DNA of 64,000 nucleotides, taken from assembly GCA_963921795.1 (NCBI GenBank), contig OY997657.1, positions 2,060,080 to 2,124,079 of the forward strand, read 5' to 3'. Positions 24,301-62,037 of this stretch are shown one piece after another; the stretch's first letter is position 1, and every line of letters starts with the position of its first letter. Below the pieces are notes generated by a model. That model saw only the letters and a list, made by a program, of their open reading frames with translations, was not told where the DNA came from and ran no database searches. A program made the position numbers and the translations under genes. Origin of the DNA: Nannobrachium achirus. Taxonomy: Eukaryota > Chordata > Actinopteri > Myctophiformes > Myctophidae.

Positions 24301-25040
24301 GGAAGTCCTTTTCAATCATCCGTTATGTATCTCGTTGTACAGCTTAAGGGCAGCCGGTACAAAAGATTTTCCTAATCTCTCGCATCTCCGTCCTGGGTAG
24401 GCAAAGCGGTCGTTTCCTCTCTTACTCCAGTAACTGGTGATCTCCAGATGGAGGGGGTGAGAGGAGTTCTCCAAGATGGAATCCAGCTTCCTCGCTGTTC
24501 GCACCCTGGTTACTTCCTCCACCCCTGCAGAGAGGACCCAACGACAGAGCCTGCTTTCCTCACCAGTCTGTTTAGGTTAAACGTGTCACCTGCTCTGTTG
24601 TTGCCACCCCAGCATGTTATACCAAAAAAGAGGACACTTGCCATGACAGACTGGTAGAACATCTGTAGCATCCTATTGCACACACCAAACGATCTCAGTC
24701 TTCTCAGGAGGAACAGCCTCCTTTTCCCCTTGCTGTGAATCGCCTGCGCGTTGTCCGACCAGTCCAGTGAACTATTCAGGTGTACTCCGAGGAATTTGTA
24801 GTTATCCACAAGCTCAACCACCTCTCTGTTAATGGTGCTTGGCACCGGGGGGACTCTCTTGGAAGTACGGAAGTCCACCACTATCTCCTTGGTCTTGCTT
24901 GCGTTGAGCCTGAGATGGTTAGCCTCTCTCCACTGCACAAAGTCCCTAACCACACCATCGTGCTCAGCCGTGTTGTCACCCGAGATCTTGCTGACCACCA
25001 CGGTATCATCTGAGAACTTCTGCAGATGACAGGTCTTGGA
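24298..25040 (-). pseudogene. LINE reverse transcriptase C-terminal fragment
   Basis: The minus-strand frame encodes the end of a non-LTR reverse transcriptase. It shows an FSDDT box (the catalytic x-x-D-D motif) near 25,010, then the conserved block NYKFLGVHLNSSLDWSDN, then SFGVCNRMLQMFYQSVMAS and CWGGN. The frame shifts near 24,515 and continues as a second frame (HPLHLEI) to 24,316. The 5' part (endonuclease and most of the RT palm) is missing, so it is a truncated, frameshifted relic. Order of parts, reading right to left: RT end, inserted MITE, 3' UTR at 23,066-23,656. Assignment to a Rex1/Nimb-like clade is from general recall of these motifs. Confidence 0.85.
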
Positions 25041-25254
25041 ATTGAAAAATAATACATTTTACTCATGTTTGAGCAGCAGATTGAGTGATGCTGTACACTA
25101 AGAGATAATCAGAGATAGTGAGGGTAGAGATTGGTGGAGAAACCAAACATGCAGCCCTGAGTTCATTCTGAACGTCATGAGAAACAGCCAGTGTTCGTCC
25201 CATGCAACACCCTGTTGAAGCATCCTTGAGCAAGGCACTGCACTGTCACTGCTC

Positions 25255-25400
25255 GTTGCTCTGGCTGCCTGTCTTCATCATACAGGAGTGTTGCTCTGGC
25301 TGCCTGTCTTCATCATACAGGAGTGTTGCTCTGGCTGCCTGTCTTCATCATACAGGAGTGTTGCTCTGGCTGCCTGTCTTCATCATACAGGAGTGTTGCA
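25255..25400. repeat. 35-bp minisatellite, 4 copies
   Basis: TTGCTCTGGCTGCCTGTCTT plus CATCATACAGGAGTG is repeated exactly four times. The open frames (CSGCLSSSYRSVA) simply translate it. Confidence 0.97.
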
Positions 25401-25748
25401 CAAATGTAGTGAACATGGCAAGCTTACATGCAACGCCATCTCCTACATATTTTCACAATTTAAAATATTTTCAATAATAAAAGAAATTAAAATATTACAA
25501 TAGGCCTATACAATATAATGACTTCAATGTGTCCGACTTGGGGAAATCGCGCTCTTTAGAACGACCATCATTTCGACCGGAAGGTTAGCGACTCACTCCA
25601 CGAAGGTGAGGGTTAGAGTCAGGTGTCGAAAAGATGACATGTAATAACAGTGACACGCTCCCGTCCAACTTGTCTTTTCATCTTATGGAAGAAAAGAAGC
25701 AGGAAGTTTCCTGGATACTGGAGGTGTTTTCAGAACATCAGTACAGTT

Positions 25749-27026
25749 TCACATGAACCCAAGATCTTCAGAGAGGAATGGGTCGGTTTCACAGAGAAAC
25801 GATATCATGAGTGAACTTGCAGGAGTTCCTTTGTGCATCACTGTATCAATGACAAAACGAGCCTTCTCATGTTTCACTATCTCCACATGGGCCTTATCAT
25901 ACTCTTCTTTGGTCAGAACCTTCTTCTGGACAAGTTGATCCAGGAGACTGTTGAGATTGGGAAGTGAAACTCTGTTGATGAAGCTGCTCCGCACCTCAAA
26001 CAGTCTCTCCTCGGCTGGACGGCACATGCGCTGAACGTGTTGTCTCAAGGCAGGAGCCGAAAGGTTTACGTAGCCTTCCCATGAACAGGCAGTGGTGTCG
26101 TCTCTTAGAAGCATCTTAATATTCTTAAACCTTTGCTCTAAATTCATGACAAACGTTGCATTATAATTGTGGTAGGACGATTTGTCAACCTGAAATCTTG
26201 CCTTCTTTGGTAGAATTATGATGGATTCATTCTGAGTGGAGGTGGAGAGGGTGTATTCTCGCTTGACATTGAGTTCACACGGAGGCATTTCAATGTACAT
26301 CTGTTCCCCGTGGTTGCTTCTTCTTTCCTGTAGCACTTCACGCAGCACAACATTCCGAGGCAGGAGCAATACGTGCATGATTGAACTGGGATCATCATCA
26401 ATCGGTGGTGTATAAAACAGTAGCACCTGTGCATGGATATGATTGTTGAAAAATGCTTTGACCCACTCATGTACGCCTGTAATGAGACCAAAGAGCGAAC
26501 ATCCAGTTATATTTATGATGACATGGCTTTCTGTGATTATATCAGGCTTGATAAGCTCTATGCCATCATCCATCACATGGATTACAAACAAGGACTTTCC
26601 TCCGCCCATGGAGAGGATCTGACAGTGTGGGAAGCGTAACTGACACACAGAGCCCTGAGTGCATTTGATGTCAAACAGTGGTCCTGCAGGCCTCTTGTCA
26701 AGCTGGGCTAGAAGCCTTTGGTTCCAAGGAACTGTCCTGTAAGTCACGTCTCCCTCTGTCTCCATCTTAAACACCAGGCCGGTCACGCTGCATTGGAACA
26801 GTCCTGTTTGGGTGCACTGGAACCTGTAGCTTTCCTTGTTTTCTACGACAACTATATCAGGTGTAATTTTCTGTGTTTTGTCCAGTAGTGTAACATCATT
26901 TAAGCTGTGGGACCGCTTTGCTCTGAAACGTGCATTGTTCTCTAGAATTTGTCTCAGGGAGGGTTGGCTTCCAGAACGAGGCAGGGAGGTGAACTCTCCC
27001 ATCCTACCATGGGAGGTGGTGGTTTC
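25749..27026 (-). CDS. FIIND (ZU5-UPA) + CARD exon, NLRP1/CARD8-like
   Basis: This uninterrupted minus-strand exon ends at TGA and encodes a FIIND followed by a CARD. Numbering from the Met at 27,002: a Ser/Arg-rich linker (1-55); the ZU5 half (about 58-169) with the family phrases GLFQCSVTGLVF, RPAGPLFDIKC and GSVCQLRFPHC; the UPA half (about 170-318); and a CARD (about 335-417, LNSLLDQLVQKKVLTKEEYD). His142 and Ser169 are 27 residues apart, the spacing of the self-cleaving His/Ser pair of NLRP1. The residue before Ser is Cys rather than Phe. A splice acceptor (TTTTCTTTTTAG) precedes 27,026, and the frame stays open to it, phase 0. In the NLRP1/CARD8 family the FIIND cuts itself and the freed UPA-CARD triggers caspase-1-type inflammasomes. 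No NACHT or LRR exon lies in the window. The next same-strand coding exons belong to the TNFR gene, in compatible phase. The Met at 27,002 has a good Kozak context (AGGATGG), so a separate CARD8-like start is also possible. Confidence 0.92.
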   Translation of the reverse strand, partial: ETTTSHGRMGEFTSLPRSGSQPSLRQILENNARFRAKRSHSLNDVTLLDKTQKITPDIVVVENKESYRFQCTQTGLFQCSVTGLVFKMETEGDVTYRTVPWNQRLLAQLDKRPAGPLFDIKCTQGSVCQLRFPHCQILSMGGGKSLFVIHVMDDGIELIKPDIITESHVIINITGCSLFGLITGVHEWVKAFFNNHIHAQVLLFYTPPIDDDPSSIMHVLLLPRNVVLREVLQERRSNHGEQMYIEMPPCELNVKREYTLSTSTQNESIIILPKKARFQVDKSSYHNYNATFVMNLEQRFKNIKMLLRDDTTACSWEGYVNLSAPALRQHVQRMCRPAEERLFEVRSSFINRVSLPNLNSLLDQLVQKKVLTKEEYDKAHVEIVKHEKARFVIDTVMHKGTPASSLMISFLCETDPFLSEDLGFM

Positions 27027-28303
27027 CTAAAAAGAAAACATCATATTAAAAACCTCCACATTGTCTGTTACTGTTGTGAGACGAAATCACAATTAAAACT
27101 TAACTTAATAATCTAAAACATCAAAAAGACCTGATATACAAGCCACAATGCAATGCATCACAACATATTTAGTACTACATGCATGGTGCAGGAAAAATCT
27201 ATTCGAATTCGAATCGTGTTTCTAACATTCAGAATCGATTCTCATCATCCAAAAAAATGATTTTAATTAGTTTTTATTAGATATTATTTATTTGATGTGA
27301 TTTTTATTTTATGATTTTTTTTTATTACGATAATTTATTAGATATTATGTTGTGTTTGTACAAGTTAAAAAGAATGTGTGCAAGCATGAATAAATCAGAC
27401 ATGTTGTCTTGGATTTACCTTTGTGTGTTTACATTATTGCAATAAGTTTATAAAAACTTTACTGTAAAAGCCACTGCACTGCTTTTCTTTGTTAGTTTAT
27501 TGTTATTATTTGCATTATTATATTTGTGATTATTTGTGATTATTTGGCATATTAGTCGTATTAGTTTATGGGTTAATTGTTAATTGGATTATTGGTTTGG
27601 GCACCAGGGGCATTCCACTCCCAGGCCTAATTGATTGAAAGGCCTGGGTGATTGGGGAAGGGCATGCACCTCCTGGTGGGCAAATGTTTTTTTTTTACCA
27701 GTGTGAGAGCACAGCAAAGAGCTAGAGAACTATGCCTGAAGAACCTGTTTGTCAATTGTATGCACTTTAATTGGTAAAAGTAAACTTGCAAATCAAACTC
27801 AAAGTTTCTGTCTGGACAATGTGTGCTTAAAGGGATAAGAAACCACGCCTCTAATTTGTTTTATGGGAATTCAGAACATGAAAAGATTTCTAAAATGTAG
27901 GCGTGGTTATCTGCCGTTGTGGGGGGAGGGGGCGGAGTAATGCGTGTTCTATCAGAGAGATAGAGCGAAGCTGTCAGCAGTGGGCACTGGGCAGTTGCTG
28001 TTTCCATTTCGGAAACATTTTTTAAAACCAGCCATTGGAGGTGTAAAAAGTATAAAGATTCGGCAACTCCATGTTATATAACCAATTATAATGTGCAAGT
28101 ATTTTACAAACAAGCCGTCTGAGCTTTTATCCATGGACATAACTTTCTCCAGCTCTGGACTGTTTTACACGAAACCGGAGAGGGACGGACGCTAGGCTAA
28201 CGCTGATAGCTATTTTCTGTATGTGTGTAGTGTAGCCTGTGTGTGTGTGTGTGTGTATGTGTGTGTGTCGTGACAGTGCGCGCGCACACACAACGTCCAC
28301 ACG

Positions 28304-28375
28304 AAAAGTAGCAGATCTACAAGCTCACAACGCGTCGCTTTCGAGACGCGTTGTGAGCTTGTAGATCGGTTATGT
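28304..28375. repeat. Dispersed hairpin repeat copy
   Basis: AGTAGCAGATCTACAAGCTC and GAGCTTGTAGATCGGTTATG around CACAACGCGTCG/CGAGACGCGTTGTG. Stem well conserved. Confidence 0.93.
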
Positions 28376-28601
28376 AGACGAGCTGCCGTAGTAGCAGCAG
28401 CTTCTCATGTAAACACGTTTGTTTCGGCTATTTTGTGACAGTGTAGTGTGTGTGCGTGTGACACGTGTTTGTGTGTGGTGACAGTGCGCGCACGCACGCA
28501 CGCGCACACGCACGCGCACACACACACACAAACACACACACACACACACACTACAGTCACAAAATAGCCGAAACCAACGTGTTTACGAGAAGCTGCGGCT
28601 A

Positions 28602-28652
28602 CATAGCCGATCTACAAGCTCACGCATTGTGAGCTTGTAGATCTGCTATTTT
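28602..28652. repeat. Dispersed hairpin repeat, short copy
   Basis: ATAGCCGATCTACAAGCTCA..TGAGCTTGTAGATCTGCTAT with the CGCCTCG inner stem lost, leaving a 51-bp version. Confidence 0.9.
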
Positions 28653-28653
28653 T

Positions 28654-28654
<1 letters not shown>

Positions 28655-28722
<68 letters not shown>
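28655..28722. repeat. (CA)n microsatellite
   Basis: About 68 bases of CA dinucleotides. Confidence 0.97.
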
Positions 28723-28727
<5 letters not shown>

Positions 28728-29602
28728 ATAGCTATCGGCGATAGCTTAGCGTCCCTTCTTCTTCTGTTCCGTGGTAAACAGTCCAAAGCTGGAGAAAGTG
28801 TGTCCATGTATAAAAGCTCAGACAACTTGTTTGTAAAATACTTGCCCATTTTAACTGGTTATAGAACATGGAGTTGCCGAATCTAATCAACAAGTGCCCC
28901 ACTGTCTGCGACAGCCCTGAGCCCTACAGTCTATGCTCTGAACAACACGACACGAGACGCCACAACAAGGGCAGAATGAAACCACGCCCCCCTTGATACA
29001 ACTGTATTAAACAAACGTTAATATTAATTAGATATGCCTACGTCACATTGCACTCTAGAACAATGATAGCTAATATTTAATGAGTGGCGCCAAAGTTTTC
29101 TTTTCTTCTAGAAACTGGAAGTATTCAGAAATAGCTGCAGAGACCAGCAGAAAGCTCTGAATCCACAAGGCTATAGGCAAACTGAACCATATCACTGCTC
29201 CCTATCACAAGTGACTCATTGATATAATATATATTTACAGAAAAAGTGATTTTGTGTTTCATGCTCCTTTAAGCCTGCGTACAGCCTAAATCCGGGTGCC
29301 TCAGTGTGTTTGTTAGGAGGTTTGTTTGGAACCAACAAACTGCACTTTTTGCACATTTACAATTATAAAAGCTACGTAAATGTACTCTGCTTTCATGCCA
29401 GCAGACTTGAGTAGATCCTGATCCTATGAATTTAATAGAGAATCGTTTTGAATAGAGATTCGTTTTTAAATCGAAAAATTATCGTTTATGAATTCGAATC
29501 GTTTGGATTTGAAATAATTGAAAAAAAAAAAATGTGAATCTTGACCCCAAGAATCGATTCTGAATCGAATCGTGGGATACCCAAAGATTCGCAGCCCTAA
29601 TA

Positions 29603-30547
29603 TTTAGTCTAGTTTTTATTTATAGTGTAGCCCTGGCTAAAACTCATTCCCTAACTAATTTAGACTACTGGCTTTAATTCATGCAATAAATAAATGGGTT
29701 TAACCCATTATGGACGTGTACAGATTTTTGTGCTTTTACCCCTCAGCCTGGGAATACATGTACAGTATGCAGTACAGTAATTTTTTTTAAAGATTTTTCA
29801 GAAAATGTTTTATGAAAGCCAAAGGTGTAAGCTATCAAATAGATACACATTAAACAACGTTAAACTCAACAACATTGTAGCTCTATGGAAAGCTTGAATT
29901 ATCCTCTATCTGCAAAGTGTTTGTTTAATAAAAATCCAATGTAGACATGTTCTGACTGAGTTACTTTCTGTCAAGAAATTCAGTTCAGGTGATTATTTTT
30001 TCTAAGTGCTGGAGTTTGGAAGCGCTCGAGGGAAATCGCTCAGCGGTCCTGTGTACCAGCTGGTTCTAAATGTCACTTCTAAAACGGCTAGTTCCATTCC
30101 TTGATTCTGATTGGCTGGTTTCCCTTAATTGCTGTGGTATATGAGGCTATAACCCTCACCTTGAATCAGTTTATATCAAACCCCAGGTGCGTTATTTCTT
30201 TCCACAGTGTTCCACAGTGCACCAATAATCTACACCTGTGGCAAAAGGCTGGGAACTAGTTTCTTGTAGCTGGGGACTACTTTCTTGCAGAGCAGACCTT
30301 ATAGTGAATTATTAGTGAAATAGTAGAACAGTTTTAATTGTTACATGTCTCTGATTTTTCATGTTGCCATATTGTAACGTTTTAGAAAAGCAATAAGCCA
30401 CGAGGCTTGTGGTTACCTGTATTTCTACCTGTATTTCTGCCCTGTGAATTACCTGTGAATCTGCTCTTCAAGGAAGGCGGTCGCTCTTTTCCTTCTCTCC
30501 CTACCTCGTGTGTCTGCTACTGTTTGATCGCCCTGAATTGTTGCGCA
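29603..30547. other. Non-coding, no recognised gene
   Basis: AT-rich. I see no exon-like segment with both splice signals and a recognisable protein. Confidence 0.45.
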
Positions 30548-30906
30548 GGTTCTCCAAGATAGCGCCGCCCATGGCTGCTGTGGTGACTACGTGTTGCGTT
30601 CTGTCGGTTTTTGTTTATGTTATGTGTGAAAAAATTGATTTGAATGCAAAAATGTAGTATGCCAAAGCAAATTCCTATGTGTATTACACAATGGTTAATA
30701 AAGAAATCTGAATCTGAATCCGGAATTTTACACCGGCTGAGAGGGTAAAATACGCCTCTCTACTTAATTGTGTCCTTCCCTTTTTCTTTTTCCCTTCTTT
30801 ATTTGTTTTGTTGTATTTGTGAGGGAACCTGGGAGGGCGGGGTATATGTGGGGTTGTATGTCTTTACACTTGAAAAGTCCTATAAATAAAGTTATACAAA
30901 AAAAAG
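30548..30906 (+). mobile_element. Two retroposon 3' ends in tandem
   Basis: The first ends at about 30,720 in GGTTAATAAAGAAATCTGAATCTGAATC, with a polyadenylation-like AATAAA and a short terminal repeat. The second ends near 30,906 in CCTATAAATAAAGTTATACA followed by eight or more A. Both look like truncated LINE tails, with no reverse transcriptase left. Confidence 0.55.
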
Positions 30907-31136
30907 GATTGCAGATGTACAAGCTTGTATGCGAATGGATCGACGCAATTGGACAGATTATTTTCCAACTAGAGGAATATTTTTTTATATTTTTTCAAAG
31001 GTTAGTGAAAATCTCTAGAGGTAGTCACGCTATTTTATAAAAACAAACTCAGGCCTCGCCCAGTGTACAAGAACCCTCATAGCTACTGGGACAGGTGTTA
31101 CACACTAAGCTAGACTAATACTGTATTCGCCCAGGC

Positions 31137-31186
31137 TCGGCCCTAGGAAATAATAAGCAGGGGGGCCTTAATTTTTCCAGGGTGGG

Positions 31187-31234
<48 letters not shown>

Positions 31235-31240
31235 GCTCAC
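31137..31240. repeat. (TA)n tract inside a repeat end
   Basis: About 40 bases of TA (31,192-31,231) follow GGAAATAATAAGCAGGGGGG, CCTTAATTTTTCCAGGGTGGGCAC. A relative of that phrase occurs at 47,225-47,275 (GGGAATAATCAGCAAGGGGGCC...). Confidence 0.85.
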
Positions 31241-32182
31241 CTATACTACAATAAACAGCAACACAGTTGCCAACAACATCTCTGGCAGGAGAGGAATCAT
31301 TACAATAATTGTCATAGATATTTGTATGCATTCATTAACCCAGCAAATAGCCAAATCTGAGCATATTTCAATCCATAAGGCCAAATCTCATAAGAATATG
31401 CCTTTAAAAGCCATTTAAGATGTTTATACAACTAGAATCTTTACACACATGCTTCCAGATAATTCATGATATAATTCCACTGCGCATTTCAATAATTCAA
31501 TTAAGCTCTCACTCAGTCTGCGCTGGACTGGTCTGAAAAGAGCTGATCAGCTCCCACAGTAGCGTCAGTTCAGAAAAAGCTAAGGTATGGCAACATGACT
31601 GATTTTTTCCCTGTTTCTATGGTTTCTTGGGCTGGATATGGCAGCCTGGAACGGTTTTTCAAGTGCAGCTAAACTTGGCATGTTAGTAGCCTAAATGTGC
31701 CACAATACCTTGTTAAAGTTTTTGTAGAATGTAGTAGTTATTTTACTGTAATTTAACAACATCCTAATACAGATAGACAAAGAGACATTCATGGATTTAT
31801 ATTTAAAGGTAACTTTTATTGTCCCCCCTGCCTGGACCCAGGGTATGGCAGCTGCATACCCCTGCCATACCCAATTGATGCCCCTGAGCTCCCAGTTTAA
31901 ACTATATGCTATAACATGACATACATGACATACAGTATAGGCTATGTCCTCACCAAGCCTACTGCACTCATCCACATTCCTGCTACTTGGCGATTTCCAC
32001 ACCTTAATCCCATAGAAATGCAAATGTAGGCACCCCATTGAATAGAGAAAAATCAACGCCCATGAGTCATTGTTTTAATAATGTAAAACATCTCCATGGC
32101 GGGAGGGGGAAAGCACTGCACTCTGCATTAGACATCATTCACTCAGACATCATCACAAGAGTGTGTCCATAATCGGCTAGTT
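31241..32182. other. Non-coding
   Basis: Contains only small frames without family resemblance. A short self-complementary stretch (GGGTATGGCAGCTGCATACC..GCCATACCC) lies near 31,841. Confidence 0.45.
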
Positions 32183-32380
32183 TGATTGATTGATTGAAGA
32201 ATTTATTAGAAGTTTGCAATAGAAAAAAGTACAGTTTCATGACAGTACAAATCACTGGTACAAGGTCAACTAAAAGGAGATCCTAGAAAGCCGAGGCTTA
32301 TTTCCACAGGAACCACACTTTAAGTATCTCATATAACATTGAAAGACAGACGGATAGAACATAGTACTTTATCTAGGATA
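32183..32380 (-). mobile_element. LINE 3' UTR fragment (same family as 55.53-56.06 kb)
   Basis: TTATTAGAAGTTTGCAATAG, CAGTTTCATGACAGTACAAATCACTGGTACAAGG and TATAACATTGAAAGACAGACGGATAGAACA align with 55,545-55,710. The coding part is absent. Confidence 0.8.
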
Positions 32381-32529
32381 ATATCAGTTTCAATAGCATA
32401 ACATCAAATACACACCGGCTACTATTAGGTTAACATTCCTAATACTGTAGTATTAAGTCACCATCTCCAGGGCGGGAGGAAAGTTGAAAAACAAGGCAAA
32501 AAGTAATCACCAACGACAACAACCTATTG

Positions 32530-32691
32530 AGCATTAATGAATAGGCTCGCCATCTCCACGGAAGGGAAAGGGAGAAGAGAAGGGGAAAAAGGTCTACCTG
32601 CGCTGGAACAGAACAACCGGCATAGTTTCACAACTAGGGCTGGGTCAGCTGTAGACTTTTGTGGCTTTTTGAGCCAGTTTCTTATGTCCAT
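32530..32691 (-). pseudogene. Possible N-terminal scrap of a ZMYM/hAT-type transposase
   Basis: The minus-strand frame from ATG at 32,691 begins MDIRNWLKKP. This resembles the MDIR-x-(F/L)-x-KK opening of hAT-derived and ZMYM1-like proteins, but similarity ends within about 25 residues. No catalytic domain. Could be coincidence. Confidence 0.25.
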
Positions 32692-33200
32692 GATTCTCTG
32701 TTCTCACTTCTCTGCTCTCACTGAAAATAGTTGAATCCCCCTCCACAACAAACAACACAGGTAATGACGCATGCGTCGCGCGTCAGGTGCAACAGCAAAA
32801 CAAATCCGACTCGGTGCGGTGCGCACCGTGCAGGGGCGGTTCTATGAATCTTTTATTATTGCATTTTCAATATTTTCTATTAATTAATTTGAAGATGTAT
32901 ATATTTTATAATAATCACAAAGAACATAAAAATAACCTATATTTAAAACCTGTAAAACATATTAAAATAATGGTGTTGTGGGGTACTACTGCCCAATCTG
33001 AACTGGGGGGGCAAAGGGCAATTTTGGGGGGCTTGGCCCTGTATTCGCCATGTCCATGTTTTCAGTAATTCGCTGAAAACAAACTCTCCTACAATCCGCA
33101 AGCCATCCAGGACCAGTACAGACGGAAATTACATCACCATTTTTCAGGTGAAAATGAGGTAAAAACCCTGGCAGTCCCGGATGAAAGTGGGAAAACAAAC

Positions 33201-33268
33201 CTGTACTGAGTTGATGTCGTCTAGGTCACAATCTTGCATCACATTGCATGGTGTAACATGTTTTCTTT
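33201..33268 (-). CDS. TNFR-like gene, exon 7 (cytoplasmic segment)
   Basis: A 68-bp exon preceded by CATTCTACAG and followed by GTTTGT. Joined to the phase-1 end of exon 6 it reads in frame as ERKHVTPCNVMQDCDLDDI and ends SVQ at phase 0. Basic residues directly after the membrane region and acidic residues later fit a cytoplasmic juxtamembrane segment. The exon is supported by splice signals and phase rather than by a distinctive motif. The FIIND-CARD exon about 6.2 kb downstream also begins at phase 0. Confidence 0.55.
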
Positions 33269-33378
33269 CTGTAGAATGATAATTGGAACAACCAGTTTAT
33301 CCAGTGGCAACTTTAGTTTTACAGTTAGTAAAGTTAGTGGGAATGCATAATATAAAATATTTAGAAGTGTAAACTTAC

Positions 33379-34277
33379 CACCATTTCTATCATGTTCAAA
33401 CAGTTGACGAAAATCATCTAGGAAGGATCTTTTGATCCACCGCAGAATCACCATGCCAACACGAAAACCAAGACCAATAAAACCAGCAATAACACGATAA
33501 GCAAAAGAAACATCATAAAAATAATATATCCAATTCATCAAACAAAAAACTAGTTGACCATAAGGACCAAAACCACGGTCAATAGTACCACTAGGGTTAG
33601 GGTTAAGTACAATGAGATAGACACTACTTAAAACAACTAAAATGTATCTACTACAAACCAAAAAATCAAAAGCACAACTAGCAGTACAAAAGAAAATCAT
33701 AGTAACGCAAACGTTAGTCTTATCAAAACCAGATTGATGAAAACTAGCAACAATAAAACCACCAACAAAACCAGCATGAATAATATCCTTATGACCATGA
33801 AGACCAGCAACACCGGCACCAACCAAAGCATTAGCAACAGCATCATCAAACATATTAGTAGCTATAACATTATAAAAGAGAGCAAAACTTACAACAAGAA
33901 CAGTGCGACAACCACAATAAAAAACATGAACAATAACAGAAGCAACAGAAACAATACCAACACCAACAACATAAACAACCTCATCACCACCAACGAAACC
34001 AGGAACACCACCACCAAAGAAACCAGAACCACTGAGCAACATCATGAAATACATAGTGAGCTCAAAAAAACGTCCACCAATATCATAACTATAACCATTA
34101 CTTCTAACAGTAACATCAACGCCGCCAAAAACAACAACAAAAATAACACCAGCAACAACAACACCAACAACACCAGCAACAAAGCCCACAGTGAGTATTA
34201 TTGAATTCAATCCTTCACATCTAGAATCATGTGAAGGACTTCCTGGTTTCATCAGATGGAGTCCAATAGATTCACAG
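33379..34277 (-). CDS. TNFR-like gene, exon 6: CRD end, membrane region, long T3-biased hydrophobic frame
   Basis: The exon opens after CTTGTCATTCCAG and completes a TNFR cysteine-rich domain (CESIGLHLMKPG..CEG), as in TNFRSF14/CD40 relatives. A membrane span (SIILTVGFVAGVVGVVVAGV) follows. Instead of stopping there the frame continues, without a stop, to a donor GTG|GTAAGT at 33,379, giving an exon of 899 bp. From about 34,186 to 33,460 nearly all codons end in T. In a 60-codon stretch I counted by hand, 52 do. The last 80 bases return to ordinary codon use (LRWIKRSFLDDFRQLFEHDRNG). The inserted part is Val/Gly/Phe/Ile/Ala-rich with several potential membrane spans. Its origin is unknown. 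Motif order and spacing loosely recall the ammonium transporter/Rh family, but identity is low. Because TAA, TAG and TGA cannot end in T, the open frame itself is weak evidence for coding. Confidence 0.6.
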
Positions 34278-34367
34278 CTGGAATGACAAGAGGAGACACA
34301 GCTTTGTTGTTTTTTTGTTCATTAAATTAATTTGTGTGAGGAAAGTTGGACTGTTAATGGTACTCAC

Positions 34368-34455
34368 TGTGTGTGAGGCTGACAGGTTGTAAAAGTACCA
34401 TCAGAATAGGTGTCACCAGTACAGTCAGCACACACTGTATCTGTGGAGGATGATC
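34368..34455 (-). CDS. TNFR-like gene, exon 5 (cysteine-rich domain)
   Basis: An 88-bp exon between TCTTCCTACAG and GTGAGT. It enters at phase 1 and leaves at phase 2, encoding SSSTDTVCADCTGDTYSDGT followed by FTTCQPHT. The (S)SSTDTVC..C..GTYS...C pattern is the classical third cysteine-rich domain of TNFRSF14/CD40-like receptors, which bind TNF-family ligands outside the cell. The preceding exon ends in ...QYVVQK plus G, and the following one starts with the codon completing His-Cys-Glu-Ser. Confidence 0.85.
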
Positions 34456-34555
34456 CTGTAGGAAGACAAACAATCATAACCACACAAAGAGAACATTTCC
34501 AGCAGGCTTCATAATCTGTGTCATGAGGTTCAGTTAAGGTTAAGAATCCTTCACC

Positions 34556-34792
34556 ATGGTAAACACTGTAGCTGAGCGAGGCTACTTCCTGAAGACCATG
34601 GCAGATAAGCTGCGATTGGCCGGTAGTGTATCATGTGTGTATGATCCGCGATGTGATTGGCCAACGTATACAGATGATGCACATGACGCTATTTTTCCGC
34701 GAAAACCGGACCCCGGCGAGGATGAAGAGAAGGCTTTAGAAGCTGAAAATAACAGAGTGGGTGTTCTAAAACTTAAGCGATTTAACAGTTAG
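34556..34792 (+). other. Unassigned small open frame in TNFR intron 4
   Basis: A 78-codon plus-strand frame (MVNTVAERGYFLKTMADKLR...) with mixed charged composition and a Glu-rich tail, ending at TAG. I do not recognise it, and no splice partner or repeat copy is visible. It may be chance or a relic of a transposon protein. Confidence 0.2.
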
Positions 34793-34839
34793 GACAATTT
34801 TAAGATTTGTTTTATAAAAAAAGTTACATGGTATAACTT

Positions 34840-35025
34840 TAAGATTAAAGGCCTGTCCATAGTATCTTCGAAATGTTTGGTGAGTTGCGATTTCTGACGT
34901 GCAAATTTCCAAACTCTCATTTGGTGTAATGCTTTTTAGAAGTCGAGAGTGATGTCATTTTGTAGTTGAACTGGACCTTTTGACCGAAAGGTTCGGTTTT
35001 GGTCAAAGTATGGACAGCCCTTAAC
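34840..35025. mobile_element. Small inverted-repeat element
   Basis: TTAAAGGCCTGTCCATAGTA on the left is mirrored by AAAGTATGGACAGCCCTTAA on the right, about 185 bp, with no coding capacity. Confidence 0.75.
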
Positions 35026-35601
35026 ACATGGGCTGCTCAAGTTTATAACATTTCTAGCTGTTGCTGCTGCCGCCGTTCACTCACGCTTTATTTTGAAGAG
35101 CCTCGGAAGCAAGTGGGTGTCCACTGACGATTGAGGAAGATAATCCCTTTGTTTACAAAAGCTCGCAAAACTAAAATCCAAACGGGAGCCGACCATCGCG
35201 TCATAGTGTCGCCGTGAAAACAATCAGATCTCTGCTTCCCTGGCGTTCTTTTCACCTCATTCAGAGATAAAGCCCTTTTTATGTTTCAGAGTAGAATGGA
35301 AATCAATGTAACCAGCCTCCGCTATTTTCTCTCTCTCCCTCTCTCTCTCTCTGCTACGGGGTGACGTATGGACTCGGGTCATTCAGAGGGCAGGCAGCGG
35401 CACGTACAGTTAACCCTTCGTTGTCTCGTTCAGGGACGAGTTTGGCGTGGTGACACCTAGTGGCCTTAACTCGTTACTGAACGAGTTTGGCCTCCCAAGT
35501 GTTAAGAATGGTTAAAATTGGCATCAAATATCTCTTGAAAACATTCTGTTAACTTACTACTTACTGTATATTAGACCAGACAAAGACCAGAGGAATAACC
35601 T

Positions 35602-35887
35602 AAAGGAGTAGTTTACCCCCAAAATTACTTTTTTCTACTCACACCATGGAGACTTGAGTTCAATAATATTTTTTGTTTTTTGTCACTTTCCTAAGACGAA
35701 ATATGTTTAACAATACATTTACCCCCATCGATTCCGGATGGGGACTCATCCGGAATCAATGGGGGTAAATTTACTATAATAACATTTTTGTCTTAGGAAT
35801 GCGAAGAATACAAAAAGATATTATTGAACTCCATGGCGTGAGTAATCAATAGAAACATTTTCATTTTGGGGGTAAATGTTCCTTTAA
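35602..35887. mobile_element. Palindromic element (TAAAGGAGTAGTTTACCCCC ends)
   Basis: Left TAAAGGAGTAGTTTACCCCC AAAAT and right ATTTTGGGGGTAAATGTTCCTTTA are inverted. Inner blocks GAGTTCAATAATATTTTTTG / AAAGATATTATTGAACTC and GATTCCGGATGGGGACTCATCCGGAATC are also mirrored. It lies in the TNFR intron upstream of exon 5. Confidence 0.85.
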
Positions 35888-35963
35888 GGAGGAGGATTCA
35901 AATGTGGGGCTAGAGTGAACCGTTGGCTCCCATTGGTCCATCTCTGTGTCCTCTCCCACTAAC

Positions 35964-36119
35964 CTTTTTGAACAACATATTGACCAGGCTTGCAGCTGCT
36001 GTGTTTCTTTATTTTCAAACATCTTTTGTTTCTTGGGCGAACACAGTAGAATCCCTCTGATGGTTCACACACTGCATCAGATGTTGCTGTACAAGGACTC
36101 TTCTCTGTCAGACCATAAC
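35964..36119 (-). CDS. TNFR-like gene, exon 4 (CRD2-CRD3)
   Basis: A 156-bp exon flanked by AATGTAATCCACAG and GTTAGT, entering and leaving at phase 1. It encodes GYGLTEKSPCTATSDAVCEP, then SEGFYC, RCLKIKKHSSCKPGQYVVQK. The C-T-x-x-S-D-A-V-C-E-P-x-x-G-F-Y-C run and the CxPGQY phrase are diagnostic of TNFRSF14/CD40-like cysteine-rich domains. The exon reads straight into SSSTDTVC of exon 5. Pieces of its upstream splice-acceptor region recur near 36,818 and 36,865. Confidence 0.88.
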
Positions 36120-36420
36120 CTGTGGATTACATTGAGTTCATTAGACTAGCCCTTGCCCAAAGATATGAGCTCCGAAATGATGTGCAGTGTGTGGGTTATG
36201 GGATGTGCACTGTGCACACAGTATGTGAGGGATGGAAAGTAACTTTAACTGGTGCTTGCATGATAATATGTAGGAGCATCAATGTAAGAAATACCCGTTT
36301 CGTTTAATGGCTATAGAGATACTGTGTACCGATCTGCATGATTTTTGGACAAAATCTGTAACAGGGCCAGACAACCGACCCCCACCGCCCGCCCGCCCAC
36401 CCACCCACCCACCCGCCTGC

Positions 36421-36421
<1 letters not shown>

Positions 36422-36505
<84 letters not shown>
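36422..36505. repeat. (CA)n microsatellite
   Basis: About 84 bases of CA repeats in TNFR intron 3, preceded by a CCCGCC/CCACC-rich stretch. Confidence 0.98.
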
Positions 36506-36508
<3 letters not shown>

Positions 36509-36885
36509 CTGGTTAAACATGTTGCCTCATGCTAGATGCAGAATAGATATGCCTCAAGCTAGATGCAGAATAGATACTAGATACACCATAAAAATGCTAA
36601 TATACAGCATATGATTTGTGAAAGTGACAAACGGGCTTCACAGTTATGTCAGGTGTGTTCATATGCTAAAGGTGATGCGATTTCAGATCAATTGCTCCAG
36701 CCACTGAGGAGAAACGCTGTGACAGACACTCACTCACTCAGACAGACAGACACTCACTCAGACAGACAGACATTTGGAAAATTATATGTTTGATGTTAGT
36801 GTACATGTTACTGTTCTCTGTGGATTACATTGAGTTCATTAGATGTTAGTGTACATGACTCTTCTCTGTGGATTACATTGAGTTC

Positions 36886-36929
36886 AAAACGCTGCGATGC
36901 GTTTTGACCTTGTAGATCGGCTATTTTTG
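36886..36929. repeat. Dispersed hairpin repeat, half copy
   Basis: Only the right arm (CTTGTAGATCGGCTATTTTT) and part of the loop (ACGCTGCGATGCGTTTT) remain. Confidence 0.7.
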
Positions 36930-37104
36930 CTTCTTTTGAATTGGAATCCTGAATTATTTGTTGTTATTTTTTAATTGGAATCGTGAATTATTTGTTGTTA
37001 TTTTTTAATTGGAATCCTGAAATGTAACATTTTGAATTAATTTCAAACACCTTTAATTATATACTCATATTAACTTTACATTGGACATAAAAAACACATT
37101 TTAA

Positions 37105-37262
37105 TACTAGTCATTAAGCTACTAATATAGACTGAAGGAATTAAAGCAGGTCATGTTTGGAATTGTAACAGCTGAAATCAATAATATATCAGTATTCCAG
37201 TATTAACCTGCGGGCCGCATTAAGTGAAGGTGGGGGCAGCATGTGGCCCCCGGGCCGCATGC
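37105..37262. repeat. Interspersed repeat shared with 57.5 kb
   Basis: TACTAGTCATTAAGCTACTA, ATATAGACTGAAGG...GGAATTGTAACAGCTGAAATCAATAATAT..TATTAACCTGCGGG also occurs at about 57,517-57,680. Function unknown. Confidence 0.8.
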
Positions 37263-37287
37263 TGCCCATGTATGCACTAGAGGTACA

Positions 37288-37352
37288 AGGGTTAGGGTTA
37301 GGGTTAGGGTTAACCTAACCCTAACCCTAACCCTAACCCGAACCCTAACCCT
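37288..37352. repeat. Interstitial telomeric repeat, head-to-head
   Basis: About four TTAGGG units run into TTAACC and then into about six CCCTAA units, so the two orientations face each other at about 37,311. Degenerate CCCTAA copies continue at 37,402-37,440. Flanking DNA on both sides is ordinary, so this is not a chromosome end. Confidence 0.93.
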
Positions 37353-38149
37353 TCACCCAAAATATCCCCAGTGGTCTGGCCGTGGGCCGGTATTCCGACA
37401 CTAAAACTAACCCTAACTCTAACCCTAACCCTAAACTTAACCTCAGTAACCGTGACGAGTAACTAAGCTGCCGACGCTAGTCGGAACAGCGGCCCGTGGG
37501 GATAGTGAGTGGACCCCCATTGTAATAGGCTTCCTTCCCCACCTTGAATGGACTTACAGTACATGATGTATAATGTAACTTATTGCATCTTTATTAGTGA
37601 GGTTGTCTAGGGAAACAATATTGTTCTATTCCAACTTTATGGAGAACCCTTAGCCAATGAGGAAGCCACATTCTCTGCGACGTCACCTATGCAGCTTCTT
37701 CATTGGCTAAAGGTTACTCTATAAAGGTTTTAATGCATCCCCATTGGCTAAAAGTTACTCTATAAAGTAATGCCATTGACTTGAATGGGAAAATGCTAAA
37801 ACTTCAACCACACTCGCAATTTCCCAGAATTGCATCTTTTTTATTTCTAGCTTTCAAGTTACATTAAACATCATGTAATTCTATTGAAGGTGGGAAGATA
37901 GCCTGTACCGTGGCCATAACACTGGGGAATATTATGGGCGAAAACCCTGTTGAATTTGAGTGTTCCTGTTCTGGTCATCCCTTGACAACGAACTACAGCA
38001 GTAAGATAATAATACATTACTTTTAATTGAATATAATTTAATGCTTTCCCCTTTATGACATTTTAATTTTACTTTTTTATTCAGAAGTTTCACAGGGAAA
38101 CATCACCTGTCAGGTCTACAGGGAAAGTAAAGTCTGCAGAACTGCAGGA
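37353..38149. other. Non-coding; short duplicated phrases
   Basis: CATTGGCTAA(A)AGTTACTCTATAAAG occurs twice near 37,700 and 37,743. No exon is supported. Confidence 0.45.
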
Positions 38150-38204
38150 ACACTTCCTGATAGTCGGGGTCCCACAGGCCCAAAAGCTCCAGGAATAGGG
38201 TTGA

Positions 38205-38640
38205 ACCTGTGATGTTCTGCCGCACTTTTTATTTCAGTTTTATCTATTAGTTTGGTCATTAAGGTCCACAGAATGAGAGGCTTGCTCTGCCGGAAACATC
38301 GCGAAAAAAGGTTATGGCCATTTGTATATTCACTGTCCCATTGACTCCACTACACAGGAAAGGAAATATATAAAAAAAAAAAGAAAGAAATCTGCTTTAA
38401 GTAGCATGTGAGGGGTCAAACTGGACGGTTTTCATGATTCTGAATCCATTGCAAGCATTTGTTTTGCACAAAAAACATTCCTTGGGCTACAAAACGGACC
38501 AACAAAAGTGTGATGCTTTTCACACTTTTATTGGTCCGTTTTCTATGGCCATATACAAATGACCAAACTAATAGATAAAACAGAAATAAAAAGTGCGGCA
38601 GAACATCACAGGTCCTCTCCCATTTTGAGGGACTGGATCC
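38205..38640. mobile_element. Long palindromic element, copy A
   Basis: ACCTGTGATGTTCTGCCGCAC TTTTTATTTC on the left is mirrored by AAATAAAAAGTGCGGCAGAA CATCACAGGT on the right. Inner mirrored parts include TTATCTATTAGTTTGGTCAT / ATGACCAAACTAATAGATAA. The same family forms the nested insertion at 58.09-58.72 kb. Confidence 0.85.
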
Positions 38641-38762
38641 CCGGCTATGAGGAAACAATCTGTTCCAGTTGCCAGAGCAGTGTAGTGATCTGGCTGGGAG
38701 GGTGGAAGCTGGTGCTCTGGTCCCCTGGCCTGGGCCTCGTTGCCTGGCCCAGGCTGTTGTAA

Positions 38763-39240
38763 TGCAGGGGTTCTCAAACGTTTTAATACCACAACCTCAT
38801 ATTATGAGGGAAGTTATTTGCCGACCCCTCACTCACTGCGTGGGTGGGTCATGATTGTACAGGGAGAAGAGGAGGGGGCTCTGCACACATCTCTGGGCTG
38901 CTGAAGGTCAGGGGGTCAGATGTGATGCTGCCCATTCCCACCACCTCAATGTGATTTAACAGGAGGTCTCGTATCTAGTCGCACATGCTTGTGGCTTCGG
39001 CTGTCTGTCTAAGGAAAGGTTTGTGGTTGGCTGGCCTTAGCTGTACTGTATATTTAGGGCAAGCGTAGCCTCTCAAAGCATCACATCATTTAGAATCATG
39101 TTGTAGAGCAGCTCTGGTCCATGTTCAACTTACATGTATAGCCTGTTTCTACACTTCAGTAAAAATAAACAATCCAAAACAGAGATGGAAACAATTTAAG
39201 ACAAAAACAGCAACATTATAAATCAGTTTACAGTTTACAG
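38763..39240. other. hAT-like end fragment and unassigned sequence
   Basis: GCAGGGGTTCTCAAACGTTTTAATACC at 38,763 resembles the CAGGGGTTCTCAA end of the hAT-like elements, but no right end is found. The rest is unremarkable. Confidence 0.4.
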
Positions 39241-39968
39241 TTTAGGCATTTAGCATTTGATGGTCATAGAGGGAAGGTGAGTGTTACAGTAGTGCAATGG
39301 GTTTAGGTGGAGTCTGAAGAGGTGAGTCTTCAGTCCATGGTGGAAGCTAGGGAGTGAGTCTGTAGTTCTAATGGAAGCTAGGGAGTGAGTCTGTAGTTCT
39401 AATGGAAGCTAGGGAGTGAGTCTGTAGTTCTAATGGAAGCTAGGGAGTGAGTCTGTAGTTCTAATGGAAGCTAGGGAGTGAGTCTGTAGTTCTAATGGAA
39501 GCTAGGGAGTGAGTCTGTAGTTCTAATGGAAGCTAGGGAGTGAGTCTGTAGTTCTAATGGAAGCTAGGGAGTGAGTCTGTAGTTCTAATGGAAGCTAGGG
39601 AGTGAGTCTGTAGTTCTAATGGAAGCTAGGGAGTGAGTCTGTAGTTCTAATGGAAGCTAGGGAGTGAGTCTGTAGTTCTAATGGAAGCTAGGGAGTGAAT
39701 CTGTAGTTCTAATGGAAGCTAGGGAGTGAGTCTGTAGTTCTAATGGAAGCTAGGGAGTGAGTCTGTAGTTCTAATGGAAGCTAGGGAGTGAGTCTGTAGT
39801 TCTAATGGAAGCTAGGGAGTGAGTCTGTAGTTCTAATGGAAGCTAGGGAGTGAATCTGTAGTTCTAAGTGCGACAGGGAGTTTATTCCACCGTTTGGGGG
39901 CCAGGAGGGCAAACTGTCTAGGACGAGTGGATTTTTGTCCTGGGGTTTTTAGCGAGGGTTCTGTCAGC
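39241..39968 (-). mobile_element. LINE ORF2 3' end, expanded by a 31-bp array
   Basis: On the minus strand the frame reads STRPRQFALLAPKRWNKLPV, ALRTTDSLPSFH and, after the array, HGLKTHLFRLHLNPLHYC. This is the typical C-terminus of fish L2-like LINE ORF2 (LAPKRWN.LP..LR...SL..F...LKTHLF). The short stretch that encodes TTDSLPSF has been amplified to about 17 tandem copies. The unit is 31 bp, not a multiple of three, so the frame is destroyed. Confidence 0.85.
39341..39866. repeat. 31-bp minisatellite inside a LINE, about 17 copies
   Basis: The unit is GGAAGCTAGGGAGTGAGTCT plus GTAGTTCTAAT. Two copies have GTGAATC instead of GTGAGTC. Confidence 0.98.
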
Positions 39969-40576
39969 ATAAATGTACCTCCATGACAGCGGTTGCATGT
40001 TTCACACTGTAGTTCTAAATGTACCTGTATGACAGTGGTTGCATGTTTCACACTGTAGTTCTAAATGTACCTCCATGACAGTGGTTGCATGTTTCACACT
40101 GTAGTTCTAAATGTACCTGCATGACAGTGGTTGCATGTTTCACACTGTAGTTCTAAATGTACCTCCATGACAGTGGTTGCATGTTTCACACTGTAGTTCT
40201 AAATGTACCTCCATGACAGTGGTTGCATGTTTCACACTGTAGTTCTAAATGTACCTCCATGACAGTGGTTGCATGTTTCACACTGTAGTTCTAAATGTAC
40301 CTCCATGACAGTGGTTGCATGTTTCACACTGTAGTTCTAAATGTACCTCCATGACAGTGGTTGCATGTTTCACACTGAAGTTCTAAATGTACCTCCATGA
40401 CAGTGGTTGCATGTTTCACACTGTAGTTCTAAATGTACCTCCATGACAGTGGTTGCATGTTTCACACTGAAGTTCTAAATGTACCTCCATGACAGTGGTT
40501 GCATGTTTCACACTGTAGTTCTAAATGTACCTCCATGACAGTGGTTGCATGTTTCACACTGAAGTTCTCCATTCTG
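39969..40576. repeat. 46-bp minisatellite made from a TNFR exon end plus its splice donor, 13 copies
   Basis: The unit (plus strand) is TGTAGTTCTAAATGTACCTC plus CATGACAGTGGTTGCATGTTTCACAC. On the minus strand each copy is the last 29 bases of TNFR exon 3 followed by AG|GTACATTTAGAACTACA, so every copy carries a potential donor. The copy nearest 40,560 is the exon itself. Copies 2 and 4 from the left vary (CCTGTATGAC, CCTGCATGAC) but keep AG|GT. Confidence 0.95.
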
Positions 40577-40656
40577 CAGAGGCTGGAAGGTTCCTTCAGG
40601 ACATGGTCCACATGAAGTTGTTGTGAACTCTGTGCAGTGCTCAGTCACATGACTTC
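40531..40656 (-). CDS. TNFR-like gene, exon 3 (CRD1-CRD2)
   Basis: A 126-bp exon preceded by GTGTCCAACAG and ending at CATGGAG|GTACAT, phase 1 in and out. With the G from exon 2 it reads GSHVTEHCTEFTTTSCGPCP, EGTFQPLQNGELQCETCNHC. The HCTEFTTTSC..CPEGTF...NG...C..C..C pattern is characteristic of TNFRSF14-like cysteine-rich domains. Its final 29 bases and donor are tandemly repeated 12 more times downstream. Reading past the first donor meets a TGA in the first repeat, so only the first donor preserves the receptor. Confidence 0.88.
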
Positions 40657-40908
40657 CTGTTGGACACAAAAACACATGGTTTGCTTTTCAGAAACACCTG
40701 GTAGGACTAAACTAGTAAGACGCCTCAGGGCGACAGCATCTGGCCAGTGATGTAGATTGGACCAGTTACCCATATATGGAGACCCCTGGTACCCATATGT
40801 GGAGATCCATGTACTGTATATGGAGATATGCTGTGAGAGCCCAGACATGCTTACTCAGTTATTCGTTACGTGAAAGTCCTATGATGTCTATGACATCTGA
40901 CATAACCC

Positions 40909-41463
40909 TTTTATGCCCATACATAGAGATCCCTGAAGAACCAGACACACAGATATGGGCTGTCTTGGCCATATATGGATTCTGTTAGTGTGGTATGTGG
41001 CCGATATGGCCTCCATATATGGGTGACTTCAGGGATCTCCATATATGGGCAAAGGGATATCTGTTTGTGAAGCTCCCTTGACATCGCAGTGATGTTATGC
41101 CCATACATAGAGATCCCTGAAGAACCAGACACACAGATATGGGCTGTCTTGGCCATATATGGATTCTGTTAGTGTGGTATGTGGCCGATATGGCCTCCAT
41201 ATATGGGTGACTTCAGGGATCTCCATATATGGGCAAAGGGATATCTGTTTGTGAAGCTCCCTTGACATCGCAGTGATGTTATGCCCATACATAGAGATCC
41301 CTGAAGAACCAGACACACAGATATGGGCTGTCTTGGCCATATATGGATTCTGTTAGTGTGGTATGTGGCCGATATGGCCTCCATATATGGGTGACTTCAG
41401 GGATCTCCATATATGGGCAAAGGGATATCTGTTTGTGAAGCTCCCTTGACATCGCAGTGATGT
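40909..41463. repeat. 184-bp tandem repeat, 3 near-identical copies
   Basis: Copies start near 40,912, 41,096 and 41,280. Each contains three CCATATATGG palindromes (CArG-box form) and CCATACATAGAGATCCCTGAAGAACC. Related single copies occur at about 44.40, 49.03, 49.13 and 49.57-49.89 kb. The array lies in TNFR intron 2. Minus-strand frames here repeat the same peptide and are not genes. Confidence 0.97.
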
Positions 41464-41716
41464 CAGAGCACTTCTTTCAATAATTGTGAGAAAAGTTTAT
41501 GTAAATGCAAATGTCCATGCAAAATGGACAGGACAAATACGTAACCGTATGTCACATTTCTGATTGGTCTGATATATTGATGAGACGTCATGTAGGTCTA
41601 TCATCGTTGTCGTCATCATCAGCACCGCTCACTTCACACTTGGTGTGATTTTTTACAGTTCTGTGGACTAAACACAATAAAAGGACACCCAGACAGTTAA
41701 AAGATGCAGTTCTTAC

Positions 41717-41810
41717 CAGGGCCACACAGGGAGCAGCATCTCCCTTCCACAGCATACTCTGAACTGGAACATGTGACCTCACATCCAACATCCTTGTGCA
41801 TCATGAACAT
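41717..41810 (-). CDS. TNFR-like gene, exon 2 (first cysteine-rich domain)
   Basis: A 94-bp exon after TTGTTGAACAG and before GTAAGA, phase 0 in and phase 1 out. It reads MFMMHKDVGCEVTCSSSEYA, VEGRCCSLCGP. The C...EY...GRCC..C.PG motif is the usual start of TNFRSF14/CD40-like ectodomains. It joins exon 3 through a split Gly codon (CCTG|GAAGT). An overlapping 67-residue frame in another phase is a shadow. Confidence 0.87.
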
Positions 41811-41867
41811 CTGTTCAACAATGAAACATGATTATCCTCATTACTGATTCACTTTGCTTTATTTTAA

Positions 41868-41873
<6 letters not shown>

Positions 41874-41956
<83 letters not shown>

Positions 41957-41962
41957 CGTGCG
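41874..41962. repeat. (TG)n microsatellite with TGCG tail
   Basis: About 78 bases of TG and then CGTGCGTGCG, directly beside the donor side of TNFR exon 1. Confidence 0.97.
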
Positions 41963-41981
41963 TGGCAGCTAATAGTTTTAC

Positions 41982-42053
41982 CAAATGAAAGACAAATAAA
42001 CTTGTGGTCACATCCATCTTGAAGAGGTCTCTGTCCACAACAAAGCTGGATGT
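41982..42053 (-). CDS. TNFR-like gene, exon 1 (5' UTR end, start codon, signal peptide start)
   Basis: The exon begins after TTTTCTTCCAG at 42,053 and carries 36 untranslated bases, then an ATG at 42,017 in strong Kozak context (CAAGATGG). It encodes MDVTTSLFVFHL up to a GTAAAA donor, phase 0. Joined to exon 2 the hydrophobic stretch continues as MFMMH, giving a short but plausible signal peptide before the first Cys. An acceptor upstream implies an earlier non-coding exon, not found. Support rests on phase, Kozak context and hydrophobicity. Confidence 0.5.
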
Positions 42054-61708: not shown

Positions 61709-61776
61709 AAAATTAATAATGAATGAATAATGATGTTTTATATTTGAACTGTTGGTATTTTGCATTGCTATTTAGT

Positions 61777-62037
61777 ATGGCGTCTGATAAAGGTGTTCAG
61801 GATGAAAATGAATTATGCGTTGAACTACCCGCCACTGGGGCTGAAACGCATAGGCCTACTGATGGTGATGCAATGCACGCTCAAAGGGTTGAACTTGAAC
61901 TTGAATCTGCGCAGGTTGAGCCAGCCACGCTGGCTGTTGTAAAGGGTTCACAGCCCCCAGAGGCTGAAAAACTGTCCGAAATCACTCAAAGTGTTGTCGA
62001 AACGGAGACACCGGTCACAAAACGAAAAAGAATTTGA
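61777..62037 (+). CDS. Acidic small protein, copy A, function unknown
   Basis: ATG at 61,777 (after GCTATTTAG, acceptor-like) opens 86 codons: MASDKGVQDENELCVELPAT, then a Glu/Gln-rich middle and a basic end VTKRKRI that could be a nuclear localisation signal. Copy B at 62,672 has one inserted codon (MV), a substitution and a loss of two bases after EKLSEITQ that frameshifts the end. I do not recognise it. Confidence 0.4.
   Translation: MASDKGVQDENELCVELPATGAETHRPTDGDAMHAQRVELELESAQVEPATLAVVKGSQPPEAEKLSEITQSVVETETPVTKRKRI

Follow-up and report, generated by a model that had tools for sequence, protein, structure and literature searches.

The inflammasomes known to date depend on cytosolic sensors for their initiation, and receptors of the tumour necrosis factor (TNF) family pass on their signals via TRAFs or death domains. 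Human HVEM and CD40 possess short TRAF-binding tails and no FIIND-CARD. UNC5 and UNC5CL are membrane proteins of another kind, with a cytosolic ZU5-UPA and a death-fold domain. Here we describe a gene of Nannobrachium achirus (assembly GCA_963921795.1), located on the minus strand of a 64,000-nt stretch of contig OY997657.1 that we call the window and whose positions are used throughout. In an eight-exon model, a TNFRSF14 (HVEM)-like TNF receptor (TNFR) is joined in frame to a last exon comprising FIIND, UPA and CARD. Judged from the sequence, and with a second locus of the same build (C1) and a third ending in CARD alone (C17) at hand, this join is very probably a real gene structure.

The window gene shares the cysteine-rich ectodomain with HVEM and CD40, which are among its best PDB matches. 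UNC5 and UNC5CL differ from it in a death domain at the place of the CARD and in the absence of TNFR repeats. Regarding the tail, excerpts of two reports on NLRP1 and CARD8 describe that the FIIND cleaves itself and that UPA-CARD assembles filaments (PMC3210808; PMC7794362). The window gene resembles both in the C-terminal order FIIND-UPA-CARD and in the serine and two histidines of the self-cleavage center, but differs in its receptor ectodomain and membrane region, with no NACHT-sized exon and no leucine-rich repeat (LRR) found upstream. Zebrafish Gbp3 and Gbp4 end in FIIND-CARD as well, and Gbp4 works through Asc, according to sections of PMC4932187 and PMC6721725. There, a FIIND-CARD tail sits on an otherwise unrelated immune protein, a precedent for a movable module, although these are GTPases, whereas the window gene encodes a membrane receptor. 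For amphioxus, hybrid receptors of TNFR and caspase with complementary DNA (cDNA) support are reported in part of PMC2575513; they likewise wire a TNFR ectodomain straight to an effector of death or inflammation, yet with a caspase domain instead of FIIND-CARD and in an invertebrate chordate. Finally, FIIND occurs in new combinations such as animal fusions with TRADD-N-type domains, for which the relevant portion of PMC8195603 mentions no TNF receptor ectodomain. The principle is already known from GBP FIIND-CARD tails, such new FIIND combinations and the amphioxus hybrids, as far as these excerpts go. No described example of TNFR-FIIND-CARD itself was found in the open-access literature (subscription papers, preprints and sequence-database annotations fall outside this scope), in line with the initial annotation of the window, which knew of none.

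The gene opens with a 36-nt candidate exon 1 (41982..42017), the least certain of all exons, with an in-frame ATG at 42017. Exon 2 (41717..41810, 94 nt, entered in phase 0) encodes the first cysteine-rich domain, and further ones follow in the phase-1 exons 3 (40531..40656, 126 nt), 4 (35964..36119, 156 nt) and 5 (34368..34455, 88 nt). Exon 6 (33379..34277, 899 nt, phase 2) completes the ectodomain and also encodes a long hydrophobic membrane region, in which GTT-type codons are abundant. Exon 7 (33201..33268, 68 nt), ending in ..DDINSVQ, is entered in phase 1 and left in phase 0. After intron 7 (27027..33200, 6,174 nt), the terminal exon 8 (25749..27026, 1,278 nt including the stop) is again in phase 0. 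The lengths given by the initial annotation, 36+94+126+156+88+899+68 = 1,467 nt with consistent phases, were reproduced from the sequence, as was the continuous frame of 914 codons reached with exon 8, which contains zero internal stops. Every junction is GT/AG with agreeing phases. Splice signals were scored with matrices and expressed as percentiles of the window sites; the donor of exon 7 reached percentile 96.7, and the acceptor of exon 8, which had been called good beforehand, percentile 98.7 among the window's AGs. The region had been drawn up to 42053, where an acceptor-like site is located; the coding ATG sits at 42017. At exon 3, a 46-bp tandem array of 13 copies (39970-40568) repeats the 3' end of this exon together with its splice donor, and similar copies are also found after exon 3 of C17.

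The proposed TNFRSF14/CD40-like ectodomain is borne out by Pfam (TNFR_c6, 9.4e-19 in three stretches) and by the nearest PDB chains, which are ELR1, HVEM and CD40 (4.2e-26 to 1.6e-22). Exon 8 matches FIIND (1.4e-44), UPA-FIIND (1.9e-21) and CARD (6.4e-13), with CARD8 and NLRP1 as nearest PDB chains and the domains in the order of that family: the ZU5-like FIIND domain (PF13553) at 26478..26843 (exon residues 62-183), UPA-FIIND (PF23679) at 26073..26438 (197-318) and CARD (PF00619) at 25761..25997 (344-422), all on the minus strand. On this strand upstream of 27026, the longest open reading frame (ORF) is that of exon 6 with 359 aa, followed by another of 200 aa, and none has the size of a NACHT exon. 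Regular expressions for LRR and Walker-A delivered nothing on either strand of the window, where short split exons could escape them. Hence the ORF list and both scans agree with the claim that no NACHT or LRR partner is visible upstream. Unlike the death receptors Fas and TNFR1, the gene shows no cytosolic death domain: Pfam gave no Death match, neither in exon 8 nor in the ORF of exon 6.

The membrane region claimed for exon 6 holds in so far as the exon is hydrophobic, with several hydrophobic stretches by simple hydropathy count; at 299 codons, it is much larger than one transmembrane helix. T occupies 73% of the third codon positions, and neither a Pfam match for its ORF nor a PDB match was found. 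Among Markov copies of the exon, 2000 of first and 2000 of second order, none had an open frame of this length. Once the codon-position composition of the exon itself is taken into account, it is stop-free with P 0.014 in the window and 0.002 in C17. Because of the former value, exon 6 alone is modest evidence, and it may represent a GTT repeat that has decayed and codes for nothing. Regarding the receptor family more widely, GTT/GGT-type codons have swollen this exon, with T at third positions ranging from 0.50 to 0.78 in nine loci. It is open for more than 250 codons from the exon start in five of them (window, C17, L046, L049 and L051, the last with an internal tandem repeat) and for 136 (C1), 101 (L047), 61 (L050) and 10 codons (L048) elsewhere. 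The peptide at the junction of exons 7 and 8, SVQ|E, fits a TRAF2-type motif, which may be chance. An ancestral TRAF motif SVQ|ETT was considered and dropped, as C17 has TPQ|E and C1 no such motif and as the FIIND-CARD exon itself begins with this E.

The join is found again elsewhere in the window's own assembly (1.66 Gb, 564 contigs), in which the TNFR query yielded 73 exon matches. The TNFRSF14-like fusion locus C1 (C1:66632653-66641352, 66.63 Mb) has seven exons of 94, 126, 156, 88, 392, 17 and 1767 nt in the phases of window exons 2-8. Counting the stop, they form one frame of 880 codons that begins with the first cysteine-rich domain and extends through the CARD, and the window protein aligns with the locus exon by exon. 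Its intron 7, just before the FIIND, measures only 156 nt, the acceptor of its exon 8 lies at percentile 99.9, and its tail matches FIIND (4.9e-43), UPA (1.6e-22) and CARD (7.9e-10). The C17 locus (C17:21820480-21816775, 21.82 Mb) comprises six exons of 126, 159, 88, 941, 68 and 378 nt in the phases of window exons 3-8, with an intron 7 of 198 nt, a tail of CARD alone and, further upstream, an exon 2 that is 79% identical to that of the window. Exon 7 thus measures 68 nt in the window and in C17 and 17 nt in C1, and exon 4 156 nt in the window and in C1 and 159 nt in C17. By chance, about 7.5e-4 neighbours of TNFR and FIIND-CARD within 1 kb would be expected, assuming 25 loci and 100 exons. 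The window alone is insufficient as proof of the join, and phase 0 on both sides without another partner, from which the initial annotation had argued, is a weak argument by itself; support for its conclusion comes from C1 and C17.

Several points weigh against the window gene as a real and working fusion, the first of them concerning its structure. Its 6.2-kb intron 7 contains seven further acceptors with scores equal to or above that of 27026 (the in-phase frames they open do not exceed 52 codons) and eleven AATAAA signals, and no AATAAA or ATTAAA follows the stop in 24000-25748. The first 400 nt of the intron match no ordinary receptor locus, and the donor of exon 1, TTG|GTAAAA, is weak (percentile 83). 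One might therefore envision two adjacent genes, a receptor that terminates with exon 7 or beyond it and an independent CARD8-like FIIND-CARD gene transcribed from a promoter of its own within the interval, to which the long distance with its polyadenylation-type signals, the other usable acceptors and an in-frame ATG close to the start of exon 8 would fit. This scenario has to face that the tail exon follows exon 7 after 156 nt in C1 and 198 nt in C17, that nine of 19 paralogous FIIND-CARD exons start alignably to that of the window and upstream of the ATG in question, and that the ordinary tail exon was not found in the interval. We consider it improbable.

The ordinary end of such a receptor is exemplified by L046, in which a short exon 7 is followed by a presumed phase-0 exon 8 reading VKVGPSRPDTNVDATERMSLLRTVEETTV; its VEET resembles the tail of human HVEM. 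With stretches from L046-L049 as queries, matches of a stretch to its own source being disregarded, the ordinary tail exon was detected at E 0.01 in eight of 14 ordinary loci, in a ninth only by a 13-nt match and in five not at all. At the same threshold, it had no match in the window, where intron 7 was covered, nor in C1 and C17. Since it escapes detection in five ordinary loci too, its absence from the fusions is only suggestive and lends them weak support. As controls, 15 ordinary TNFRSF14-like loci were read about 5 kb downstream of exon 5, one of which was mostly masked. None of the 14 readable ones has a FIIND or CARD within this distance (tblastn, E<=0.01), a range that would miss a case of the window type, whose exon 8 begins 7.3 kb past exon 5. 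Within 150 kb downstream of the control loci, no FIIND was seen among the matches listed (best candidates, inspected by eye). The tail is present in three of 17 readable TNFRSF14-like loci (window, C1 and C17), other listed loci being outside the count. A TNFR_c6 profile search of the genome revealed no new neighbour of TNFR and FIIND, though it is insensitive to split exons and does not list the window itself.

The FIIND-CARD exon belongs to an amplified family. We obtained at least 151 FIIND matches (best 150 of 410 candidates scored) and at least 120 matches to the window exon 8 protein (best 99 of 514 candidates scored) in this genome. Beside the window's own, 19 paralogous FIIND-CARD loci were read. 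The nine whose start could be made out (L013, L016, L018, L020-L024 and L030) have a GTIPLHGE-type start compatible with a phase-0 acceptor, which stands directly after a stop in five of them and is preceded by ..tttctag in L030. The exon starts can be aligned (window ETTTSHGRM, C1 GSLLLHV, C4 GPMIGHG, family GTIPLHG), each with His at position 6, which points to an acceptor-led terminal exon rather than to a gene with its own ATG. Given nine alignable starts of phase-0 type, many upstream genes could join FIIND-CARD in phase. As far as its sequence tells, the exon is built as last exon for some upstream gene. At L053 (C18, 10.51 Mb), an AIG1/GIMAP-type ORF (2.5e-33) near FIIND-CARD is a possible partner by proximity only, and at L052 and L054 no partner is visible in the ORF lists, which were not Pfam-scanned. 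Viral contigs and genome contigs outside this genome contained 0 relatives each of the FIIND-CARD protein.

How the tails were acquired is partly visible at their borders. In C1, similarity to ordinary receptors (L049, L062; 1.5e-15) covers exon 7 and extends into the beginning of intron 7, while exon 8 matches the FIIND-CARD family, which places the breakpoint inside intron 7; the start of window exon 8 matches the same family. The approximately unbiased (AU) test did not reject a common clade for the FIIND-CARD of window and C1 (p=0.43). Further points on the opposing side are found here: in the FIIND-CARD tree, C1 groups with the tail L019 on C4 (Shimodaira-Hasegawa-like approximate likelihood ratio test, SH-aLRT, 93) and not clearly with the window, and a clade of window and C17 CARDs was rejected (AU p=0.002). 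A single origin of the window and C17 tails was discarded on the latter result. In addition, C17 has no FIIND; as module homology continues just upstream of its acceptor, a deletion seems to have removed FIIND together with most of UPA. Between window and C17, synonymous divergence (dS) is 0.13 in the ectodomain and 0.42 in the CARD. Since the ectodomains are close and the CARDs do not group, tails seem to have been exchanged between receptor copies, to judge from these comparisons.

The remaining points against a working window copy concern self-cleavage and selection. Relative to CARD8, His134, His150 and Ser177 of the exon 8 protein align to His-252, His-270 and Ser-297, so that all three are kept; their roles in self-cleavage are described in excerpts of PMC3210808. 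The predicted site C176|S177 (26496..26501, minus strand) corresponds to F296|S297 of CARD8. In an alignment of 28 rows, which leaves out L002 as it is the same place as L015, the motif is FS in 16, LS in nine, FT in two and CS in one. The C|S, without Phe before the scissile bond, is thus confined to the window, and C1 retains F|S. Besides, the window has Ile at the position of CARD8 Glu-279, where neighbouring paralogues in the alignment likewise have no Glu; His-270 is replaced by Arg in two of the 28 rows. Both C|S and Ile separate the window from NLRP1/CARD8, and self-cleavage has possibly been lost as a consequence. It is possible that the window copy is inactive or does not cleave itself. 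The ratio of nonsynonymous to synonymous substitution (dN/dS) of window and C17, 0.93 in the ectodomain and 0.82 in the CARD, also suggests that the window copy may be relaxed.

Two scenarios build on these observations. In the first, a genuine fusion gene is at work in C1, and the window copy has become inactive or is in decay. The C|S motif, the dN/dS values against C17, the weak exon 1 and the 6.2-kb intron 7 fit to this idea, which is countered by 914 stop-free codons, by the preserved serine and histidines and by a pairwise dN/dS of 0.54 against C1 in FIIND-CARD (likewise 0.54 in the ectodomain). We regard it as rather unlikely, yet worth considering. In the second, the fused tail is a brake: an uncleaved FIIND at the membrane (window) or a bare CARD (C17) would absorb ASC or caspase, and the receptor, deprived of its TRAF-type tail, would become a decoy. 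The C|S motif, the CARD without FIIND in C17 and the ordinary tail exon not found at the fusion loci are in agreement with a brake, while the C1 copy, with F|S and an entire FIIND-UPA-CARD, is not. Such a brake appears unlikely to us.

With moderate confidence, we instead favour a TNFRSF14 (HVEM)-like receptor gene with a shuffled FIIND-UPA-CARD last exon that acts as a ligand-gated inflammasome starter. An exon of the large amplified family would have been shuffled into the phase-0 intron 7 of the receptor gene. The ectodomain would bind a ligand outside the cell, and UPA-CARD would be gathered at the membrane by clustering, or freed there once the N-terminal part is removed, as happens in NLRP1/CARD8. 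UPA-CARD might then nucleate ASC or a caspase via CARD filaments, by which the fused receptor would become a ligand-gated inflammasome starter. For this ligand-gated mechanism taken by itself, we see the chances as about even. A receptor ending in FIIND-CARD would unite the cytosolic sensor route and the TNF receptor route in one molecule, a testable 'cytokine-gated inflammasome'. Moreover, the coexistence in a single genome of related receptors with a short tail, with FIIND-CARD, with CARD only and perhaps with a death domain plus FIIND-CARD represents a natural experiment.

The last of these forms is suggested by a Fas-like candidate on C4, which consists of L064 (C4:70226000-70233899) together with L019 and comprises TNFR repeat exons, a transmembrane exon, a death-domain exon and FIIND-CARD. 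It forms a single open in-phase frame of 812 codons, running from TNFR repeat to FIIND-CARD, and scores 3.2e-8 for PF00020 and 1.5e-5 for PF00531, with FAS as the best death-domain PDB match (1.2e-4). The acceptor used for the death-domain exon is the one that agrees with a Fas-like relative on C13; an alternative acceptor was out of frame and was rejected. Two caveats apply: unspliced, the death-domain exon stops three codons past the donor, and the intron measures 1.77 kb. In the C13 relative, the stop lies within the death-domain exon, and no FIIND was found within 3 Mb among the matches listed. Tentatively, and with slightly less than even confidence, one might speculate about a branch of membrane-anchored inflammasome sensors within the TNF receptor superfamily, in which the signalling tails of at least two receptor types of this lineage, HVEM-like and Fas-like, are replaced or extended by a mobile FIIND-CARD exon and an extracellular TNF-family ligand starts a CARD inflammasome without a NOD-like receptor.

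Besides these genes, match listings revealed seven sites at which about 102-105 kb separate an intronless TNFR ORF of 328 aa from a partial FIIND ORF of 147 aa: C1 85.3-85.4, C3 9.7-9.8, C5 43.4-43.5, C7 71.0-71.1, C15 46.1-46.2 and C19 52.9-53.0 Mb as well as C345. This pair appears to belong to a large element that has multiplied recently, perhaps a large DNA virus which acquired both domains from a host. In the window itself, copies of a 50-bp satellite, about 215 in number, occupy 10.7 kb (8883-19620). Just downstream of exon 8, an ORF at 24510-25058 on the minus strand resembles a reverse transcriptase fragment of a long interspersed nuclear element. Finally, two near-alike ORFs (MASDKGVQDENELC...) at 61723-62037 and 62570-62944 on the plus strand form a locally duplicated coding stretch.

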